Assembly (NCBI GenBank): GCA_947629795.1
Contig: CANRFC010000023.1
Coordinates: 1 to 47,524 of the forward strand
Length of the DNA stretch: 47,524 nt
Source of the DNA: an uncultured Oscillospiraceae bacterium
GTDB taxonomy: Bacteria; Bacillota; Clostridia; Oscillospirales; Oscillospiraceae
Direction of reading: 5' to 3'
Below, in pieces: positions 27,097-35,945 of this stretch. Within the stretch, counting starts at the first letter, position 1. Each line of letters begins with the position of its first letter. Under the pieces are notes generated by a model. That model saw only the letters and a list, made by a program, of their open reading frames with translations. It had not been told where the DNA came from and searched no databases. A program made the position numbers and the translations under genes.

Positions 27097-27170
27097 AGCG
27101 GGATTGTGTAAGGGTAGCACAGCAGACTCTGACTCTGTATGTGAGGGTTCGAATCCTTCTCCCGCTGCCA
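27097..27170 (+). tRNA. tRNA-Gln(CTG)
   Basis: Cloverleaf with acceptor AGCGGGA/TCCCGCT, anticodon CTG in CTCTGAC, T-loop TTCGAAT and an encoded CCA. Its 3' end (27148-27165) is duplicated exactly at 34549-34566, marking it as the integration target of the following island. Confidence 0.95.
27148..27165 (+). repeat. attL-like site in the 3' end of tRNA-Gln
   Basis: TTCGAATCCTTCTCCCGC, covering the T-loop and acceptor 3' strand, is identical to 34549-34566. It bounds the low-GC island on the left. Confidence 0.7.
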
Positions 27171-27176
27171 AATTAG

Positions 27177-27222
27177 ACAAAGCCTACGTATAACTTCGGT
27201 ATACGTAGGCTTTGTTGTTTTA
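27177..27222 (+). terminator. Terminator of tRNA-Gln
   Basis: ACAAAGCCTACGTATA pairs with TATACGTAGGCTTTGT around a 7-nt loop (ACTTCGG), then TGTTTTATT. Confidence 0.85.
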
Positions 27223-27296
27223 TTGGCGGAACGCACAAAATAGCCGTCAATGAGTTGTGCAAAAATAATAAAACCTGAAAGGTTAAATACTTTATA

Positions 27297-27350
27297 TTCC
27301 TATGTTTCATCTTCTGCTAAGGAGATGCGGACATAGGAACTTTTATTTTT
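27297..27350 (+). terminator. Terminator-like leader hairpin before the recombinase fragment
   Basis: TTCCTATGT (27297-27305) pairs with ACATAGGAA (27331-27339), with an inner CATCT/AGATG stem, followed by CTTTTATTTTT. It may attenuate the downstream gene or end an older transcript. Confidence 0.6.
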
Positions 27351-27363
27351 GGAGGGGTTAAAC

Positions 27364-27717
27364 ATGAGAATACCATATGGTTTTAGCTTGACTGGCACTG
27401 GCGCGCTTGAAATCAACGAGAACTCTGCGGATGTTATACGAAAAATCTTTGCTTGCTATTTAGCGGGAGCAAGCTTGGGAAGAGTTGCCGATATACTTTA
27501 TGCACAGCAGATTCCCTCGCCAACAGGGAAAGCAAGATGGACTCGTGCCGCAATTGACCACATTTTATCTAATTCCAAGTACGTTAGCATTGTTGGGCTG
27601 CAGCCCTTTATGGATGCTCAAATTGAAAAGGCTGACCGCTGCAATGTTGATTATAGCAAAGAGGATGTGTCTCGGAAGTCCACTCGATATGCTTCTCCTA
27701 CCATGATCCAATGGTAA
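27364..27717 (+). pseudogene. Isolated serine-recombinase 'Recombinase' domain (fragment)
   Basis: A 117-residue product that matches only the middle Recombinase domain of large serine recombinases: MRIPYGFSLTGTGALEINEN, ADVIRKIFACYLAGASLGRVA, IPSPTGKARWTRAAIDHILS. The catalytic N-terminal resolvase domain and the zinc-ribbon/coiled-coil C-terminus are absent. GGAGGGG precedes ATG 27364, so it could still be translated. Large serine recombinases are about 500 residues. It is either a remnant of the island's integration machinery or a stand-alone DNA-binding domain. The AT-rich codon use differs from the flanking chromosome. Confidence 0.7.
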
Positions 27718-27725
27718 TCTGTCTC

Positions 27726-27755
27726 TTCCAAATCATTGTAATATCTGTTACAATG
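27726..27755 (+). promoter_or_regulatory. Promoter with palindromic operator before the KilA-N gene
   Basis: TTCCAA (27726-27731), 17 bp, TACAAT (27749-27754). A perfect palindrome CATTGTAA-N6-TTACAATG (27734-27755) covers the spacer and -10, a likely operator. Confidence 0.5.
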
Positions 27756-27774
27756 ACATAAAGGAGGGAGCGAT

Positions 27775-28389
27775 GTGACAGGGGATAAGAAACTTCAGCC
27801 GATAGACTTAGTGGGCATCGGCAAGCTGCTGGAACAGCTTGTGATAGAGAATAGCATTTCCTGTGACGAGCGAGACAGGATCATACAGCGAATTGCGAAG
27901 GAAAATGCTTTGGAAAATGTGAACCTTGTCACGCTTGTCGGCTATGGTCAAAGCAGAGAAGATGTGCTGCGGAAGTCCGCTCACAGGACGTCACTTGAAA
28001 TATTGCCTCCCAAACATGATGATGAGTATCTTTCCCTAACTGAAATTGCTCGCGCGCATAGTGGGGACGCACCAGGATATGTTATTCAAAGCTGGTTGCG
28101 GAGCGGAAATACATTGGCGTTTTTGAACCTGTGGGAGAAAGAGAACAACCCCGACTATCTTGAAGGAGCTTACATGGAGTTGATGGATAAAAAGAAAGCC
28201 GCTTCCTTTACTTTAACGCCAAAGCTGTGGATCAGCCAAACAAAAGCGATTGGCATTGTGTCAAAGCAAGGCAAATCTGGAGGCACTCTTGCTCATCCAG
28301 TCATTGCCTGCGAATTCGCCTCATGGCTTACACCAGAGTTCAAAATGCTGTTGCTGAAATTGTCGCTAAGAAGAAATAGTTTGACGTAA
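27775..28389 (+). CDS. KilA-N domain protein, frameshifted near the C-terminus
   Basis: A 204-residue protein with a KilA-N DNA-binding domain in residues about 85-190 (EYLSLTEIARAHSGDAPGYV, IQSWLRSGNTLAFLNLWEK, SFTLTPKLWISQTKAIGIVS, AHPVIACEFASWLTPEF). KilA-N proteins are common in phages and mobile elements. The N-terminal 75 residues form a separate helical part. The start is GTG 27775 after AAGGAGGG. After EFK the frame reads MLLLKLSLRRNSLT, whereas the +1 frame gives NAVAEIVAKKK and a stop at 28379, as expected of the family; loss of one A in the run near 28342 explains this. The DNA-binding part should be intact. Confidence 0.75.
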   Translation: MTGDKKLQPIDLVGIGKLLEQLVIENSISCDERDRIIQRIAKENALENVNLVTLVGYGQSREDVLRKSAHRTSLEILPPKHDDEYLSLTEIARAHSGDAPGYVIQSWLRSGNTLAFLNLWEKENNPDYLEGAYMELMDKKKAASFTLTPKLWISQTKAIGIVSKQGKSGGTLAHPVIACEFASWLTPEFKMLLLKLSLRRNSLT

Positions 28390-28434
28390 TTGACGGTCGA
28401 TTATAGAAAGTTCTTTTTTAATCGGGTGGTAAAA

Positions 28435-28521
28435 ATGGTGCAACGGCAAGATGAAATCTTACATGTTCTAAACTTGGTCATTGATGAGTTTCATCAGCAA
28501 GAACCGTTTCTTGTTGAATAG
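28435..28521 (+). other. Short remnant ORF in the island (28390-28589)
   Basis: This 200-bp stretch has no clear gene. A 28-codon ORF (MVQRQDEILHVLNLVIDEFH) lies at about 28435-28521 with a weak ribosome site. It may be a leftover of a larger gene. I see no RNA structure here. Confidence 0.3.
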
Positions 28522-28589
28522 CAATTTGACCTATATATGTGCCGTGATGTATGGTACGATTGCAACCTTTTATCAGAGGAGGATGAAAG

Positions 28590-28952
28590 ATGGCGTTTTG
28601 GAACAAGAAGCGCAAAGGGAACGATAGCTTAGAGGACTTTATAGCAAAGAGAATTGTTGAAGTCTCCAAACAACCGGACTTTCAAGAAAAAATGAAAAAG
28701 CAGGCCGAAAGACGCAATACCATATTTAATGGGCAGCGGCCTGACTCCGACGATTACGGCTATAGCCTCAGTAATCCTATTTGTACCTCAACGATAGAAC
28801 ATAGTAGTAAGTACCTTTCACGCTTACTTACTGAAAAAGGCGAAAAATTATACTGGGTGCGTGTTGGTTCCTTTGATTTAAAAGAGTGTAACGGAGTTCC
28901 TGACGTGATTGTAGATCACTATTGTTTATACTGCTTGCCTCGGCCGCTGTGA
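28590..28952 (+). CDS. Hypothetical island protein
   Basis: A 120-residue, mostly polar protein with a strong AGGAGG site before ATG 28590. The N-terminal third is basic and helical (MAFWNKKRKGNDSLEDFIAK); the rest (YGYSLSNPICTSTIEHSSKY, GEKLYWVRVGSFDLKECNGV) looks like a compact globular domain. It has four cysteines. No signal peptide or membrane segment is seen. The end, LYCLPRPL, looks abrupt and may be a truncation. I do not recognise the family. Low GC matches the island. Confidence 0.55.
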   Translation: MAFWNKKRKGNDSLEDFIAKRIVEVSKQPDFQEKMKKQAERRNTIFNGQRPDSDDYGYSLSNPICTSTIEHSSKYLSRLLTEKGEKLYWVRVGSFDLKECNGVPDVIVDHYCLYCLPRPL

Positions 28953-29123
28953 AAAGTCAGGCCATGAGGTTGGCCACGCTCCTGATAGGCTGCCCTGAAT
29001 GTAGCCATGACCAAATGCGTACTGGAATTATGAGATACCCGGTACCCGACTACTTTACGAGAGTACACGTCCAGAATTATGCAGAGGTAGACCCAGTAGT
29101 CCTTGATTTTGAACTGCGTAATA
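28953..29123. other. Gap between the hypothetical gene and the transposase remnant
   Basis: No supported gene. An open frame continues to 29158 (MRLATLLIGCPECSHDQ...) but lacks a ribosome site and resembles no family I know. It may be the broken 3' part of the preceding gene or the insertion site of the IS3 remnant. Confidence 0.3.
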
Positions 29124-29795
29124 TCACTGACCCATATCTAGTTGGGATGATCTGCTGAAAACTCTCGTTTCAGCAGATTTTTTTGCCCGCTGCAGCCGCT
29201 TCTTGAATAGCTTTTTAGAATCTACCCGGACACTACATAGGCCAAGCTTCCGCATGATTGCCGTCACTCGCTTTTTGCTGACCTTAATACCGCTCTGAGC
29301 CAAGACAATACGAATTTTCTCGGCTCCATACCGTTGCTCGCTGTCATCAAAGACCTGCTTGACCTTCAGCATGAGCTGAGCTTGCTCATCTTCATATTTA
29401 CTTCGGTCTGCACGGCGGAAGATATGATTGTAGAAGGTCCCCCGTGCCACATCCAAGGCATCGCAGAGCTCATGGACACTGTATGGGTTGTCTGGCTGAT
29501 TGTATAGCTTTTCCAGCGTTGAGAGTTTTTGCTGCAAAGGGACAGAAACCAGATATCCGCTGAGCCGGATAATCTCCATCTCATGTTCCAGTTTTTGAAG
29601 CCACCGGGAGATAGCATCAAACTCTGCTGGAGTGTATGTGCGATTAGGCGTCTGAATGGAGCAATACTCCTTACGCCAGTGGTAGAGGGTGCTTTGGGAG
29701 ATATGTAGTTCTTTACTAAGGGTTTTGATGGATTCGCCTTTCTCATAGCAATCGATTGTTTTAGCTTTGAGTTCAGCAGGGTATGTAACTGGCAT
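29124..29795 (-). pseudogene. Truncated IS3-family transposase
   Basis: A 223-residue product joining an OrfA-type helix-turn-helix (YPAELKAKTIDCYEKGESIK, TLSKELHISQSTLYHWRKEY) to the N-terminal HTH_21 part of OrfB (YSVHELCDALDVARGTFYNH, QRYGAEKIRIVLAQSGIKVS, KKRVTAIMRKLGL). The DDE catalytic core that should follow is absent: the protein ends shortly after KKLFKKRLQRAKKS. A hairpin CTGCTGAAA/TTTCAGCAG (about 29154-29178) lies at the break. It cannot transpose. It separates the older left part of the island from the NACHT gene and could mark a past rearrangement. Confidence 0.8.
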
Positions 29796-29885
29796 AATTT
29801 TAAACCTTCTCTGCAAGATTGTTACGATCACTATGCTACCGTAGCTCAAACAGGACATTACGCTAAACCCATCGTGCATATTGAC

Positions 29886-29914
29886 TTGAAAAGAATGAGA
29901 TGCCCTGTTACAAT
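29886..29914 (+). promoter_or_regulatory. Promoter of the SMEK-NACHT gene
   Basis: TTGAAA (29886-29891), 17 bp, TACAAT (29909-29914). The gene therefore has its own promoter right after the transposase remnant and is likely expressed constitutively. Confidence 0.75.
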
Positions 29915-29959
29915 AAAAGAAATCAACATAATATCGTTTGGATGGCGGGAGGGATTTGA

Positions 29960-32692
29960 GTGCTGATGCGAAAAGAATATATTGAAGAAATTACATTTCG
30001 ACTTTCTTGGCTTCTGAACAAAATTGAATTTTCTAATTCTTTAAGTTTATACGATAATGACATCCATGCAGAAACATTTTTTTGCGGATTGTTGAATGCT
30101 ATTTGGGGATATCAACTCAAGAACCTCAACAGCGATACCACTAATCATGTTGCGATAGATTTGGGCGACAAATCCAATCGGGTTGCTATCCAGGTCACAG
30201 TTCAACGAAAAAGAGAAAAAATCCAGAGTACAATCGACAAATTTCTTGAAAACGGCTTTCAGAAAGATTATGACCGTTTAATAATCTTAATTATGGGGGA
30301 AAAGCCAAACTTTAGAGTGGATTTTAACACAGGTGGAAAATTCTCGTTTTCCACAAGGGACGATATCTGGGGCAAGAAAAATCTTATTAAGGCGCTGAGG
30401 GCCAAAACTGTCAATGAATTAAGCGATATTAAGGAGTATCTTGACAAAGAACTAAGCCCCGTCAAAGGATTTGTGGGATCAGGAAATTTGCATATTGCCA
30501 AAACAATGGGGAAAAAAGCATATGAAGAATGTATGAAAAAGCTCCTCGCTGCTGGGATTAAAAAAGAAATTGCAGATAACATCATCTCAAATGACATCCA
30601 AAGCCAAAAATACGAATACATTTTGAAAGAAGTCCATGCTAAAAAATGTTATCTTATAGGCGAATTTGGCATGGGGAAATCACATGCGTTGACTATTTTG
30701 GTTCAGCGATATGCTCAACACTTCTCAACTGATTGTATGGGATTATTGCCCTTGTTTGCTTTGGCCAAAGAAATTGCCTCAAGCGGATCTATTCGTCAAT
30801 GGGTAAATCAATTTAGTATTCCCATGGAAAGCTGTCTTCTTTTTATTGATGGCCTGGATGAAATAGATTATAGCACCGCTCGAGAATTGTCTGATGAAAT
30901 CAAGCTTCTTTTAAGTCAAGAGATTCGCATCTTGGTTGGAAGCCGGACCTTGTATGCTTTGGTTGATGAGAGTCAAATAATCAGAATTGCTCCTCTGACA
31001 AACCAAGAGCGAATCTCACTATATCAAACAATTACAGGTGATACCTCCGCAAATATGGTTTTTGCACATATTAAGGAGGAAATGAACGAAATGCTTTCCA
31101 GGCCATTCTATTGCATTATCTTTGCGCAGCTCAAAACATCTCCAATGAGTTGGGCAAAAAAGGATATTGATATTGTGTCGGAATTTATTGAAAAGAGTTT
31201 GCAAAAATGCGGCGATGAAGCAGAGATAACTTACTATGACCTTGCAAACATGGCAGCTAAATCTATAGATCGGGGCTTAGGTGATATTCTTTTGCCTGAA
31301 GTTCAGTTAAAAAGTTCGAAATCATCCATTCTAAAGACGGGATTCATTTCTCTGTCAAATAATTATGTCAGCTTTCCTCTTCCTATTATCACGCAATGGT
31401 TAGCGGCAGAATCTATTCGGCGCAAAATAGTAAATTTGGACGATATTTTATCCAGTGAACTTCGAGCAAATCGATGGATGTATGCACTTTCCATTCTATT
31501 TAGCCAAATGACATTTGAAGAATCATTGGAATACTTTTCGGTGATTGTAAAAAAGATGCCCGGAATTGCTTCTCGCATTATTAGGGATGGCATTCGGTTT
31601 GGGCAACATATTAAACTCCCTTCCGAAAATGAATGTGGAGAGATGATTCAACAATGTATGCAGATATGGATTGAGTCATTGGGAGAACTGAGCAAATTCA
31701 TTGCACCTTGTTGCAACGGAAAAGTGCGCCCATTAGCAATAGATATCGAAGACGATTTCTTATGTTATGGGTGGACAAAGAATACAGATGGCCCCATTGT
31801 GACTCAAATGCCACATGAGAAAATTGTTCAGATCTGCGGTAGCATGCATTCGCGCAGTATACACCCACAACCGACTTGGCCATGGATACTTACTTTTGAA
31901 GAATTATCAGATCGGTTAGGGAAAGCAATTAAGAATCATGCCTTATTTCCGACTAACAGCCAGCTAAAGGATGAATGGTTTTGGAGTTTAGCGCTTCATA
32001 TGCGGGGCGGGAACAAATCTATTCATGAAAAACAAGGCATTGAGCTGTCATATTTTGAGCAGTATAGAAAATATGTCGGGCAAGGTTTCATTTTGGATGG
32101 CAAAAAGATACCAACTAATGAGTTTTTTGATGAAGTAGATAGGCTGTTAGCACAAGGAATAACAAAAGTTGTGGCACCATATCCTTTGCCAGATAAAAAG
32201 CAAAATCAGTCGGGATGGATATGGGGAAATTACAGTGCGGACAAATATTTGGCAAAAGCTCAATTTGTTTGTAAAAAGGCATTGGAAGAGTATATAAATT
32301 TGGTGAATTCGGTCTTTTATGCCTTCAAAGGCAACTTGAGGCTCGCAAGGCTTTACCCATGCAAATTAGTTGGCGGACTTAAGTTTACCGAAGGCATGGG
32401 GACTGGGAATTGGGTAAAAGATACTCCTCAAATGACTTGGTACTGGGAAGCATTGCCTTATACTGAAACTGGATATATTGATATCCAGTTAAAAGAAATC
32501 CCATTCGATGACCGTCGCTTATATGAGACTATCCAGAAGCGCAATGAGGAATTACGGCCACTGGCAGAAGGCCAAATTGGAGCACGCATGGCATCGGGTG
32601 AATTTACTCAAATCATTAGTACAACCCCTGTTTCTGATATAACATTTGATTGGCTCAAGGAAGATCTAAAGGAAATCGGATGGATTAGCTAA
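29960..32692 (+). CDS. SMEK-NACHT STAND ATPase, putative anti-phage protein
   Basis: A 910-residue cytoplasmic protein. Residues 1-165 match the SMEK domain found before NACHT ATPases (IHAETFFCGLLNAIWGYQL, HVAIDLGDKSNRVAIQVT): a restriction-endonuclease-like fold with Glu38, Asp67 and Gln78-Val-Thr80 where nucleases have D...(E/Q)xK. Residues about 228-360 form a NACHT NTPase: Walker A GEFGMGKS (234-241), Walker B LLFIDGLDE (293-301, the NACHT/STAND signature), and GSRT with Arg329. The remaining 500 residues are probably the sensor. GTG 29960 lies 6 bp after GGGAGGG; ATG 29966 is an alternative. By family analogy it would sense a phage component and activate its N-terminal effector. A terminator follows. 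Confidence 0.85.
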   Translation: MLMRKEYIEEITFRLSWLLNKIEFSNSLSLYDNDIHAETFFCGLLNAIWGYQLKNLNSDTTNHVAIDLGDKSNRVAIQVTVQRKREKIQSTIDKFLENGFQKDYDRLIILIMGEKPNFRVDFNTGGKFSFSTRDDIWGKKNLIKALRAKTVNELSDIKEYLDKELSPVKGFVGSGNLHIAKTMGKKAYEECMKKLLAAGIKKEIADNIISNDIQSQKYEYILKEVHAKKCYLIGEFGMGKSHALTILVQRYAQHFSTDCMGLLPLFALAKEIASSGSIRQWVNQFSIPMESCLLFIDGLDEIDYSTARELSDEIKLLLSQEIRILVGSRTLYALVDESQIIRIAPLTNQERISLYQTITGDTSANMVFAHIKEEMNEMLSRPFYCIIFAQLKTSPMSWAKKDIDIVSEFIEKSLQKCGDEAEITYYDLANMAAKSIDRGLGDILLPEVQLKSSKSSILKTGFISLSNNYVSFPLPIITQWLAAESIRRKIVNLDDILSSELRANRWMYALSILFSQMTFEESLEYFSVIVKKMPGIASRIIRDGIRFGQHIKLPSENECGEMIQQCMQIWIESLGELSKFIAPCCNGKVRPLAIDIEDDFLCYGWTKNTDGPIVTQMPHEKIVQICGSMHSRSIHPQPTWPWILTFEELSDRLGKAIKNHALFPTNSQLKDEWFWSLALHMRGGNKSIHEKQGIELSYFEQYRKYVGQGFILDGKKIPTNEFFDEVDRLLAQGITKVVAPYPLPDKKQNQSGWIWGNYSADKYLAKAQFVCKKALEEYINLVNSVFYAFKGNLRLARLYPCKLVGGLKFTEGMGTGNWVKDTPQMTWYWEALPYTETGYIDIQLKEIPFDDRRLYETIQKRNEELRPLAEGQIGARMASGEFTQIISTTPVSDITFDWLKEDLKEIGWIS

Positions 32693-32756
32693 TCCTCAGA
32701 AATTTGGTTCCATGCCGTTGAGTGGCATCTATTTTGTCTGGGTGTTACATGATAAG

Positions 32757-32791
32757 TTGACAGGCTTCATGTCGAAGCCTGTCAATTTTTT
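32757..32791 (+). terminator. Terminator of the SMEK-NACHT gene
   Basis: TTGACAGGCTTC (32757-32768) pairs with GAAGCCTGTCAA (32774-32785), then TTTTTT. Confidence 0.88.
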
Positions 32792-32878
32792 CAAATATAT
32801 TTATACTTATTGCGCCGCAGCGGATTCCGCTGTGGCTATTTTTATTGTGGAGAGATGATAGAGGCGCACATTTTACCC

Positions 32879-34180
32879 CTAAATGCAAAACACCGCATAA
32901 AGTGGTACCGACTTCAGCCCATCTTTTTCTCCAAAGTTCTTCTGCGAGAGACGGATCGACCAGGCCGGATGATAGGTCTTGACAAACACGTCCAGGCTGC
33001 GGGAGCGGACATGTTCTCCCTTTTTGACCTCTACGCCGATGATCCGGTTCTCCTGCTGGAGGACAAAATCCAGCTCCGCCGTGCCGCCGCTCTCCCAATA
33101 GTAGAGAGAATAGCCTTTGGCGGTCAGTTGCTGCGCCACATAGTTTTCGGTGACCGCCCCCATGAAAGTGTTGCCCTCATCTGAAAGTACGGTTTGCTGG
33201 GAAAGACCTGCCTTCAGCGTCAGAAGCCCCACATCACCCATATAGAGTTTAAAGGCCGAAAGGTCGGCATAGGCAGGAATAGGCTCTATCGCCTGGCTAA
33301 TGCGTTGGCATTTGAGCACCACTCCGGCCAAGTTCAGCCATTCAATGGAGGCTCCAAATAGTGTGGCACTGCCGCCCTTTTGAACTACCTTGTATTGAAA
33401 TTTCTTGTTTTCCTTGGCAAGCTGAGCAGGGATAGAGTTATAGCAGGCCCTGATTTTCACGCTGTCAGCGTTGCTGGCATACTTGGCCATGTCGGCGATA
33501 TAGTTATCCAATATCTCACTCTGCACCAGAGGCACATCTAAAAAGCTGCCCTTTGCCAGATAGGCGTTTACGCAGGCAGGCATGCCCCCGATGAGCAGAT
33601 ATTCCCGATAGAGCTCGATGGCTTCCCGGTGCAGCGGCTCAGGCAGCGGCATCATGCTGTCATAAGCCATCCTGATCTCCTGTGCCAGAAATTCTTTTCC
33701 CCTCGCCCACAGGAATTCCTCAAAATCCAGCGGATAAAGGGTCAGTGTCTCGACTTTCCCCACCGGGAAGGAGTATTGCTGCCGGTTGATGGCGACCCCC
33801 AGCAGGCTCCCCGCAGCGGCAATATGGTACTCAGGTGTCTCCTCGCAAAAGTATTTCAGTGCCGTCAATGCCCGTTCGCAGGATTGGATCTCATCCAGGA
33901 TAACAAGAGTCTCACCCGGAACGATCCGCTCTCCGGTGGCCGCCTCCAGATAACGAATCAGCCGCTCCGGGGCGATATTGTCTCCGAAGTAACCAGCCAC
34001 GGTCAGGTTGGTCTCCAGGTTGACATAGACCACGTTTTTGAAGTGCCGCTCACCAAACTCCCGCAAAGTATAGGTCTTTCCTACCTGCCGGGCGCCGTTC
34101 AGGAGCAGCGGCATCCGTCCGGTCGACTTCTTGGCCCAGGCCACCAAGGCTGTTTCTACTTTCCGTTTCAAGGGCATCAC
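32879..34180 (-). CDS. AAA ATPase with DUF4143 domain
   Basis: A 433-residue ATP-binding protein: AAA_14 domain with Walker A GARQVGKT (29-36), Walker B LVILDEIQS (91-99), and a sensor region (IAAAGSLLGVAINR), followed by DUF4143 (PLDFEEFLWARGKEF, YLLIGGMPACVNAYL, FKLYMGDVGLLTLKAGL). Near the C-terminus ELDFVLQQ...GVEVKKGE places an Asp and an EVK motif at PD-(D/E)xK nuclease spacing. Function is unknown; these ATPases are widespread in gut Firmicutes. The promoter (TTGACT-17-TAAACT) predicts transcription only a few bases before the GTG 34180 / ATG 34177 start, so the message may be nearly leaderless. Confidence 0.85.
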   Translation of the reverse strand: MMPLKRKVETALVAWAKKSTGRMPLLLNGARQVGKTYTLREFGERHFKNVVYVNLETNLTVAGYFGDNIAPERLIRYLEAATGERIVPGETLVILDEIQSCERALTALKYFCEETPEYHIAAAGSLLGVAINRQQYSFPVGKVETLTLYPLDFEEFLWARGKEFLAQEIRMAYDSMMPLPEPLHREAIELYREYLLIGGMPACVNAYLAKGSFLDVPLVQSEILDNYIADMAKYASNADSVKIRACYNSIPAQLAKENKKFQYKVVQKGGSATLFGASIEWLNLAGVVLKCQRISQAIEPIPAYADLSAFKLYMGDVGLLTLKAGLSQQTVLSDEGNTFMGAVTENYVAQQLTAKGYSLYYWESGGTAELDFVLQQENRIIGVEVKKGEHVRSRSLDVFVKTYHPAWSIRLSQKNFGEKDGLKSVPLYAVFCI

Positions 34181-34191
34181 CTCACATGGTC

Positions 34192-34220
34192 AGTTTACAA
34201 GCATCGGAGAGTTAAGTCAA
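34192..34220 (-). promoter_or_regulatory. Promoter of the AAA/DUF4143 gene
   Basis: Minus strand TTGACT (34220-34215), 17 bp, TAAACT (34197-34192). The start codon is only 12-15 bases from the -10. Confidence 0.65.
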
Positions 34221-34259
34221 GAAAAATCTGCTGAATTTTGATTTTTTCAAAGATAATTG

Positions 34260-34304
34260 CAGAAAGCTGAAGCGTTGCAAATTTTGCAACACTTCAGCGT
34301 TCTG
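34260..34304. repeat. 45-bp near-perfect inverted repeat at the right side of the island
   Basis: CAGAA-GCTGAAG-GTTGCAA pairs with TTGCAAC-CTTCAGC-TTCTG around a 3-nt loop, with two single-base mismatches on each arm. The surrounding 34221-34548 holds no gene; it is AT-rich and includes a CCCCGC/GCGGGG repeat (about 34397-34437). Confidence 0.7.
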
Positions 34305-34548
34305 CGTATATTCTCATACTTATGCCCGGAGAAGTTCATCACCTGTAGCGAAATCTTTCTCACCGTTCTAACATGATCTGTGATTGATCCCCGCTGTGCG
34401 GCGCATAAAGTTTTTCCTTATTTTTTTCCTTGCGGGGATAATACGGACTGACATGAGATGGCATATTTCAAAGGATAAAGTTGCGGATTCTATGCGATTC
34501 CAGATGAGATGGGATATATTGAGACAGAGTAACATGACCGGCGGGTAA

Positions 34549-34566
34549 TTCGAATCCTTCTCCCGC
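34549..34566 (+). repeat. attR-like duplicate of the tRNA-Gln 3' end
   Basis: TTCGAATCCTTCTCCCGC matches 27148-27165 exactly and is followed by CGGCAAA where the tRNA has TGCCAAA. It sits in a CCGGCGGG/CCCGCCGG hairpin (about 34539-34569), 9 bp from the MATE stop. Confidence 0.65.
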
Positions 34567-34574
34567 CGGCAAAA

Positions 34575-35945
34575 CTATTGTGGCCGGACCTCCGGCTCCG
34601 GCGTCCTGCGCAGCTTGCTCAGGTAGGGCAGGAACAAGGCAAGGGAGACCGCCAGGGCGATCCAGTCGGCCAGGGGGGTGGCCCAGGGGATGCCCCGGAC
34701 GCCCATCCGGCGGTCCAGAGCCAGCATGAGGGGAATGTCCAGGGAGCCCTTTCGGAGCAGGGAGAGGATCAGGGGCTGGATCCGCTGCTTGGTGGCCTGG
34801 AAGGTGGTGATGATCATAAAGTTGACCGCCGTGGAGGGGCAGGTAAAGCAGATGACCTTCAGAAAATCCCTCCCGTAGGCCACGGTCTCGTCGTTGTCAA
34901 TAAAGCACCGGGTGATGGGAGCGGCGAAGAGGAAGAGGGTCAGGGTGGCGGTGCAGGCGATGGCCAGGGTATAGGTCAGGGTCACCCGGATGGACCTGGT
35001 CATGCGCGCCCGGTCCCCCGAGGCGTAGTTGTAGGCGATGAGGGGCAGCACCCCCTGGGTCATCCCCTGGGCCACGGAGAAGGCGATCATGTCGATCTTC
35101 TTGGCAATGCCCATGCCGGCCATGGCCTGGTTGGAATAGGCGGTGATCAGCCGGTTCAGGACGCTGTTGGACAGGCAGCCCAGCATCATCATCAGAAAGC
35201 TGGGAAGGCCGCCCAGGATCACCTCGCCGGGGACTTCGCCGGAGAGCCGGTAACGGCGGGGGTCGGGGGTGATGACCGTCCTGCCCCGCAGCCGGTAGAG
35301 AAAGAGGAGGAAGTAGGTCGTGGCTGCCGTGTTGGACAGCATGGTGGCCATGGCCGCGCCGGCGATCTCCAGCCGGAAGACGAAAATGAAGATGGGGTCC
35401 AGAAGGATGTTCAGCACGCCGCCGAAGGCGACCCCGAAGCCCGCCTGTCTGGCGTAGCCCTCGGTGCGGACCAGATGGGCCAGCCCGGCGTTCAGCACGG
35501 TGGGGACGGCGCCGACGGTGATGGTCCAGAAGACATAGCTGGAGCAGAAGCCGTAGGTCCCCTCGTTGGCGCCCAGGATGGGGAGGAGCCAGGGCCGGAT
35601 GAGAAACACAACTATGCCGTAGAGCAGGGCCAGGGTCAGCGCGGTCCAGAAGCTGAAGGCAGCGGTGGCCTTTGCGGTCTCCCGGTCCCCCTGCCCCAGA
35701 CAGCGGGAGATCTTACTGGCGCCGCCGATGCCGAACAGGTTGGACAGGGCGGTGAGGGCCACAAAGGCGGGCATGGCCACGGTGGCCGCGGCCACCTGGT
35801 TGGGGTCGTTGAGTTGGCCGATAAAAAAGGTGTCCGCCATATTGTAGACCACGGTGATGATCTGGCTGATGACCGTGGGGAGGGCCAGGGCCAGCACCGC
35901 CCGGCGCACAGGGGCCTCCCGGAAGAGATATTCATTCTCCTGCAT
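34575..35945 (-). CDS. MATE-family multidrug efflux transporter
   Basis: A 456-residue inner-membrane exporter with about twelve hydrophobic segments in two similar halves, typical of MATE proteins of the MepA/DinF type. Visible motifs: VISQIITVVYNMADTFFIGQ, GGASKISRCLGQGDRETAK in the first half, LPSFLMMMLGCLSNSVLNRL and MTQGVLPLIAYNYASGD at the start of the second. MATE pumps exchange cationic drugs for Na+ or H+. The ATG overlaps the tetR gene by 14 bp, so both are one operon and the regulator probably controls the pump. The stop lies 9 bp from the island edge. Confidence 0.93.
   Translation of the reverse strand: MQENEYLFREAPVRRAVLALALPTVISQIITVVYNMADTFFIGQLNDPNQVAAATVAMPAFVALTALSNLFGIGGASKISRCLGQGDRETAKATAAFSFWTALTLALLYGIVVFLIRPWLLPILGANEGTYGFCSSYVFWTITVGAVPTVLNAGLAHLVRTEGYARQAGFGVAFGGVLNILLDPIFIFVFRLEIAGAAMATMLSNTAATTYFLLFLYRLRGRTVITPDPRRYRLSGEVPGEVILGGLPSFLMMMLGCLSNSVLNRLITAYSNQAMAGMGIAKKIDMIAFSVAQGMTQGVLPLIAYNYASGDRARMTRSIRVTLTYTLAIACTATLTLFLFAAPITRCFIDNDETVAYGRDFLKVICFTCPSTAVNFMIITTFQATKQRIQPLILSLLRKGSLDIPLMLALDRRMGVRGIPWATPLADWIALAVSLALFLPYLSKLRRTPEPEVRPQ

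Follow-up and report, generated by a model that had tools for sequence, protein, structure and literature searches.

A predicted SMEK-STAND NTPase protein with an undescribed C-terminal module on a tRNA-linked genomic island of an uncultured Oscillospiraceae bacterium

Introduction

What is the function of a 910-residue protein that carries a predicted nuclease at one end and about 425 residues of no described family at the other, and why is its gene found on a low-GC (guanine plus cytosine) island next to a tRNA gene? The gene lies at positions 29,960 to 32,692 of contig CANRFC010000023.1 from an uncultured Oscillospiraceae bacterium (assembly GCA_947629795.1); the whole stretch analysed, 47,524 nucleotides, is referred to below as the window. 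Bacterial proteins of the STAND class (signal transduction ATPases with numerous domains) are related to animal and plant immune receptors, and the trigger of most of them is unknown. The stimuli of bacterial NACHT proteins have been called challenging to discover (PMC12169576). A first-pass annotation had read the gene as a SMEK-NACHT ATPase with a possibly degenerate nuclease and a probable anti-phage role. Judging from sequence comparison, we consider it probable that the gene encodes a one-gene abortive-infection STAND protein, directed against phages or mobile elements.

Results

The NTPase and C-terminus as a candidate module with exchanged N-termini

The strongest evidence for a role in biological conflict is that the NTPase and C-terminus recur with other effectors. 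When the whole protein was run by tblastn against a set of 72,556 plasmid records, 42 of them matched; among the matches listed (20 of the 42 records), eight extend beyond SMEK, for example over residues 190-909. Searches with two relatives each returned 11 plasmid records covering all or part of the NTPase/C-terminal module. Two genomes also gave matches along the whole module: G410, which together with the window's own genome makes at least 2/398 of the phylum (7/398 if partial P-loop matches at E <= 0.001 are included), and G851, with a frame of 886 residues, which brings the class to at least 2/391 (3/391 with a weak partial match). These genome counts are lower bounds, often with two candidates scored per genome. 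Weak partial P-loop matches in G242, G332, G377, G506, G584 and G832 were not counted as members; G602 holds a module fragment with one stop, L006 is truncated (its existing part was used) and L025 is broken. The NTPase and C-terminus thus appear to form a conserved module of about 720 residues, present on plasmids of Bacillota, Actinomycetota and cyanobacteria and in two genomes.

Nine members have a readable N-terminus. Over the Pfam cut-offs, these N-termini comprise SMEK in the window protein, an alpha/beta-hydrolase in L005 (LCAT, 34.3 bits, cut-off 21), EAD10 in L007 (79.8 bits, cut-off 24.1), a TIR-like DUF4062 in L027 of G410 (32.5 bits, cut-off 24.7) and a Schlafen domain in L035 (SLFN_AlbA_2, 43.9 bits, cut-off 25.3). 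L008 carries a probable HNH (HNH_2, 15.6 bits, below the cut-off of 21) and L014 a probable SEFIR domain (18 bits, below the cut-off of 23); L009 has two hydrophobic stretches but no Pfam effector family, and no Pfam effector family was found in the N-terminus of L024. In an all-versus-all BLAST of the nine N-termini no pair scored better than E 0.3, and the modules of the members align from the NTPase through to the C-terminal end. The exchange also shows among nearer relatives: the HNH and SEFIR proteins and L026, a gene cut short that has yet another N-terminus without a family, are mutually 42-51% identical, with alignments that begin shortly before the NTPase. The module tree groups the window protein with G851's AlbA_2 protein at a support of 97/97, on a long branch that leaves its place unsure.

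Because a constant module is combined with exchanged N-termini, which is the best evidence on this point, the module would serve as receptor and switch and the N-terminus as output. With slightly more doubt than belief, we further suggest that the module defines an unnamed STAND defence family: one receptor, carried on islands and plasmids of Bacillota, Actinomycetota and Cyanobacteriota, that drives at least five kinds of effector (seven including those below cut-off) in response to one widely conserved infection signal. If the module is indeed a single defence family, the constancy of its C-terminus of about 425 residues would imply such a shared signal.

On the Nostoc plasmid (L007, 4304-10329) consecutive genes encode a caspase, the EAD10 member of the module family and a second EAD10-NACHT protein, surrounded by CHAT and TPR genes; the caspase has a partial C-terminal match to EAD10 (22.3 bits, cut-off 24.1, E 1.3e-4). 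According to PMC8195603, EADs are small domains without catalytic activity that connect effectors to regulatory cores of this sort. In G410, the DUF4062 form has as its neighbour a frame of 1426 residues (L027 4221-8498, minus strand) with an Mrr-like start by eye and no Pfam match.

The C-terminal module, a proposed sensor

The C-terminus, which the first-pass annotation had singled out as the undescribed part, is indeed undescribed in Pfam, NCBIfam, PADLOC and the Protein Data Bank (PDB). A Pfam scan of the ten C-termini gave one stray match (1/10, E 0.028), as did an NCBIfam scan (1/10, E 0.12), and a PDB search with the C-terminal profile found nothing below E 0.13. PADLOC assigned no family to the NTPase/C-terminal module of the window protein and gave one stray match in 1/9 members (E 0.0055). 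A separate PDB profile search, with the NTPase/C-terminal module, gave ten different sequences at E values of up to 1, and none carries the name Avs; we take Avs chains to be present in that database. Across the ten proteins, the stretch of residues 486-910 has six invariant columns (P49, Y293, G320, P348, L414 and D417 in stretch numbering), and W-x-W and WLxxDLK-like motifs are nearly invariant; the L007 row of this alignment begins 29 residues late. We infer that this conserved module is the sensor.

A NACHT-like STAND NTPase

The central part of the protein contains a Walker A motif, a Walker B of the form hhhhDGhDE and a downstream arginine (VGSR, 326-329), which together we take as marks of NACHT NTPases; where the NTPase/helical part ends, a conserved LP/QWFAA motif resembles, as we see it, the winged-helix motif of NACHT proteins. 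When nine family NTPases were compared with four NACHT-type proteins, profile against profile, they matched with a probability of 94.5 (E 7.9e-8, 133 columns), compared with 0.1 for the neighbouring AAA_14/DUF4143 ATPase as a control; this control consists of one sequence only, and L072, among the four NACHT-type proteins, lies below the Pfam cut-off. The Pfam NACHT model itself gave no match to the window protein at E <= 0.1, and no other Pfam family is reached above its cut-off by the window NTPase. Two relatives reach that model below its cut-off of 26.7 (L005, 20.3 bits; L009, 19.6 bits), and L035 matches nSTAND3 at 21.5 bits, also below that model's cut-off. The NACHT assignment of the first-pass annotation is therefore supported by the profile comparison but not by the Pfam model, and we describe the domain as a probable NACHT-like STAND NTPase whose clade is left open. 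In a PDB profile search of the NTPase/C-terminal module the best match was Bms1 (E 0.0048), over the P-loop, which we took as a generic P-loop match and not as a relation to Bms1.

The SMEK domain

The N-terminal SMEK domain proposed earlier is beyond chance: Pfam SMEK_N (PF21941) matches residues 11-146 with 144.5 bits (cut-off 27, E 2.4e-42) and NCBIfam SMEK with 101.6 bits (cut-off 30, E 1.6e-29). The PADLOC match of the window protein covers the SMEK part only and belongs to an Argonaute-associated model (E 8e-40). By sequence, the window SMEK is related to a solved structure, 26bh (E 3.8e-16), entitled 'the Mrr domain from Kordia jejudonensis Mrr-APAZ pAgo'. SMEK is listed as one of the nuclease domains found in partners of short Argonautes (PMC10810196), and KjAgo together with SMEK-APAZ reportedly acts as a weak collateral nuclease on double- and single-stranded DNA (PMC12205087).

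The first-pass annotation had taken QVT in place of the nuclease ExK as a sign that the enzyme may be degenerate. An alignment of SMEK domains taken from five different proteins shows E38, D67, Q78, V79, T80 and K87 to be invariant, and the E, the D and the K recur in the Kordia domain of 26bh, which reads Q-I-T; a seventh domain, in G173, reads Q-V-S, so the third position is not absolute. Q-x-T, with D upstream and K downstream, is thus present in six of the seven SMEK domains examined. Because these residues are shared among SMEK domains and weak activity has been reported for KjAgo/SMEK-APAZ, Q-x-T looks like the family's own motif and not like decay, and the reading as a degenerate nuclease is not borne out. 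We infer that K87 supplies the missing catalytic lysine. In TmuRE, a DUF4365 relative, Q62 and K64 are used (PMC10810196).

SMEK also occurs apart from the NTPase/C-terminal module, in L010, in L012 and in G173, where it stands ahead of a different frame of 1569 residues. At L010 (6001-8894) the SMEK protein is followed by an 80-residue gene with a weak match to the ABC-3C middle component 6 and by a DUF2326 gene, and the locus adjoins a DpnII-type restriction system. SMEK exceeds the cut-off in 2/200 genomes of the family and in 1/299 of the phylum (the window's own genome). Two records of one Klebsiella phage match part of SMEK; in one, H82 (Klebsiella phage ST15-OXA48phi14.1), the SMEK-like stretch lies right at the end of the record, at bases 2-283 (31.9% over 94 residues, E 7e-6), and probably belongs to a gene that is truncated there.

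An intact gene on a tRNA-linked island

The locus is a single gene, as the first-pass annotation had stated, and it is intact, one frame that opens at a GTG, runs for 910 codons and has no internal stop; an ATG at 29966, two codons in, is an equally possible start. The motifs lie where first noted: IHAETFF at 35-41, AIDLGD at 65-70, IQVT at 77-80, GEFGMGKS at 234-241 and FIDGLDE at 295-301. A ribosome-binding-like GGGAGGGA precedes the start. Of the expression signals claimed earlier, the promoter did not stand out from chance (12 consensus matches, compared with 10.5 expected in shuffles). The terminator hairpin fared better (folding energy -24.4 kcal/mol, z -7.95), although a terminator consensus scan was itself at chance level (2 matches vs 2.5 expected) and did not include this hairpin. 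All features are collected in Table 1.

Table 1. Positions of the gene, its domains and motifs, and the surrounding island in the window
Feature	Position	Strand	Basis or remark
Whole gene: SMEK, predicted NACHT-like STAND NTPase, undescribed C-terminal module	29960..32692	+	910 residues, GC 38.8%
SMEK domain, predicted PD-(D/E)XK-like nuclease effector, residues 11-146	29990..30397	+	Pfam SMEK_N, 26bh, alignment
Walker A GEFGMGKS, residues 234-241	30659..30682	+	aligned in relatives
Walker B FIDGLDE, residues 295-301	30842..30862	+	aligned in relatives
FPLPIITQWLAA, residues 472-483, conserved LP/QWFAA motif, end of NTPase/helical part	31373..31408	+	alignment of relatives
C-terminal module, proposed sensor, residues 486-910	31415..32689	+	conserved in ten proteins
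Possible promoter TTGAAA-17-TACAAT with TG	29886..29914	+	between IS3 remnant and gene; consensus match only
Strong terminator hairpin, then T run	32754..32788		between gene and convergent DUF4143 gene
Low-GC genomic island carrying the gene, 7.4 kb	27173..34548		GC 43.6% vs 65.4% outside
Left att-like (attachment-site-like) repeat, 3' end of tRNA-Gln (tRNA 27097-27170)	27148..27172	+	25-nucleotide repeat
Right att-like repeat	34549..34573	+	23/25 identical to tRNA-Gln 3' end; abuts high-GC MATE gene
Serine recombinase remnant, 117 residues	27364-27717	+	Pfam Recombinase 44 bits, profile positions 2-55 of 102
KilA-N domain protein	27775-28389	+	Pfam 47.1 bits; PADLOC candidate PDC-S22, E 2.9e-39, first half of model
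Two overlapping frames, 120 and 78 residues, may be one broken gene	28590-29158	+	
Convergent AAA_14/DUF4143 ATPase	32879-34180	-	PADLOC candidate PDC-S01, E 1.7e-169; GC 54%
MATE transporter bordering the island	34575-35945	-	one of 18 MATE-type matches in 2.86 Mb genome

The GC content falls from about 65% outside to about 38-45% within the island and climbs toward its right end. In 300 mononucleotide shuffles the best match to the tRNA 3' end was 19/25, compared with the real 23/25. Within the island, an IS3 remnant is the upstream neighbour of the SMEK gene, and the 120-residue frame matched nothing in Pfam, NCBIfam or PHROG. The intermediate GC content of the DUF4143 gene suggests that it differs in origin from the SMEK gene. 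No intact integrase was found in the island; the recombinase remnant is of the serine type, though the island ends resemble the ones that a tRNA-targeting integrase leaves behind.

The AIM24 gene, which precedes the tRNA, is present in 12/16 genomes of the same genus. Ten such AIM24 loci were retrieved; L066, with 1 kb, was set aside and the other nine were compared, three of them (L065, L067 and L068) over stretches of only 3.5-6 kb. The tRNA-Gln (CTG) lies inside the stretch in 9/9, on the opposite strand relative to AIM24 in L065 and L067 compared with the other seven. At these nine loci, tblastn at 1e-5 gave no match to the SMEK, KilA-N, recombinase, IS3, DUF4143 or MATE proteins. The view of a mobile, tRNA-linked island is upheld by the 25-nucleotide repeat (23/25), the low GC and the absence of the genes at the nine related loci.

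The window protein was found in 1/200 genomes of its family, its own. The first-pass annotation had named homologues in housekeeping operons as counter-evidence. A housekeeping gene was ruled out on the grounds that the gene is sporadic and that the nine same-genus loci, three of them short stretches, gave no match to the island genes. Phage records gave no match to the whole window protein, and one matches a piece of the L005 module (E 6e-5); scans of viral contigs, which used narrow peptide patterns, found no relative. The sole match of a genome-collection scan (L002, Desulfotignum, 32 residues) was dropped as an rRNA-methyltransferase-like frame by eye.

Discussion

Proposed mechanism and alternatives

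By analogy with better-known systems, the C-terminal module would keep the ATPase closed in the resting state until a foreign or infection-linked trigger acts on it. ATP-dependent oligomerisation, as expected of the STAND class, would then cluster the SMEK domains into an active and probably non-specific DNase, as the KjAgo/SMEK-APAZ system suggests, and DNA degradation would halt the infected cell, in analogy to bNACHT25. Abortive infection by this route is favoured, besides the recurrence of the module, by the presence of SMEK in other defence settings (the PADLOC Argonaute-associated model, ABC-3C and 26bh), by two further PADLOC defence candidates on the island (PDC-S22 and PDC-S01), and by the effector exchange, the NACHT-type profile match, the sporadic distribution and the att-like repeats. 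Several observations weigh against it. The SMEK domains of the five-domain alignment lack the classical ExK/QxK lysine, and the Pfam NACHT model is not matched. AlphaFold2 without an alignment failed to model either residues 175-505 (mean predicted local distance difference test score, pLDDT, 35.9) or residues 490-910 (pLDDT 39.8). The recombinase and IS3 are remnants, so that the island cargo may be decaying, and there is no close relative on which selection could be tested.

The same switch and nuclease could instead guard the island or its host against plasmids or other mobile elements, or kill cells that lose the island, with no sensing of phage. The gene does lie on a mobile-looking island, the module occurs at least in part on 11 plasmid records, and the short-Argonaute systems in which SMEK-APAZ is a partner target invading DNA (PMC12205087); no antitoxin-like gene was recognised next to it, however, its neighbours being the IS3 remnant and the convergent DUF4143 gene, and we regard this alternative as unlikely. 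That SMEK is a catalytically dead scaffold in a STAND regulator, that is, a degenerate effector, seems to us very unlikely: Q-V-T where ExK/QxK is expected, the reliance of TmuRE on Q62 and K64 (PMC10810196) and the weakness of the Kordia activity (PMC12205087) would fit it, but the E, D, Q, T and K, which do not vary among five SMEK domains and recur in 26bh, are unlike decay, and other effector domains occupy the same place in other family members. Least credible, in our estimate, is that the island has decayed and carries the gene as silent or dying cargo. The recombinase and IS3 remnants and the chance-level promoter match agree with such a fate, yet 910 codons without a stop, all motifs kept, a ribosome-binding-like GGGAGGGA and a strong terminator do not.

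Relation to known systems

The abortive-infection STAND protein proposed here resembles, in outline, bNACHT25 and bNACHT32 (clade 6: PD-(D/E)XK, NACHT and NCH1), which share a nuclease-type effector at the N-terminus, a central NACHT-type NTPase and a C-terminal sensing part. bNACHT25 is a nuclease-NACHT protein in which phage proteins trigger DNA degradation and host DnaJ is needed (PMC12169576). The comparison, made by description only, also reveals differences: the effector of the window protein is SMEK, and its C-terminus of about 425 residues matches no Pfam family where clade 6 has NCH1, the Pfam coverage of NCH1 being unchecked. KjAgo SMEK-APAZ, of the SPARDA group, has a homologous SMEK as effector (26bh), but there it is driven by an Argonaute/APAZ pair and a guide RNA, whereas the predicted driver in the window is a STAND NTPase in the same protein. 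An Agrobacterium protein of 883 residues (WP_111791087, L012) likewise combines SMEK (E 4.4e-42) with NACHT (29.6 bits); its similarity to the window protein is limited to residues 2-229, with no match to the C-terminal module.

The TIR-like DUF4062 that heads the module relative L027 recalls Swarozyc, a DUF4062 NADase, whose bacterial form, by contrast, consists of DUF4062 and an auxiliary domain and senses the phage portal (PMC13174449); a NACHT neighbour is mentioned there for eukaryotic DUF4062 proteins (PMC13174449). The EAD-linked STAND conflict systems (Kaur et al. 2020, 2021) share a constant core, exchanged N-terminal effectors and EAD adaptors, but the available excerpts of these papers contain no mention of SMEK, and no such C-terminal module was recognised in them (PMC8195603, PMC7159879). 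A literature search by listings and excerpts, whose coverage did not include a key paper on bacterial NACHT proteins and one on Avs structures, found no description of a protein with SMEK and NACHT or of such a family. STAND proteins with exchanged effectors are already known; the C-terminal module is not in the libraries searched.

If the proposed function is true, the SMEK nuclease would be under a further kind of control besides its Argonaute and ABC-3C partners. A single sensor joined to different outputs would also offer a way to the stimulus: natural variants of the family should share the phages to which they respond, and the trigger would be identified from phages that escape.

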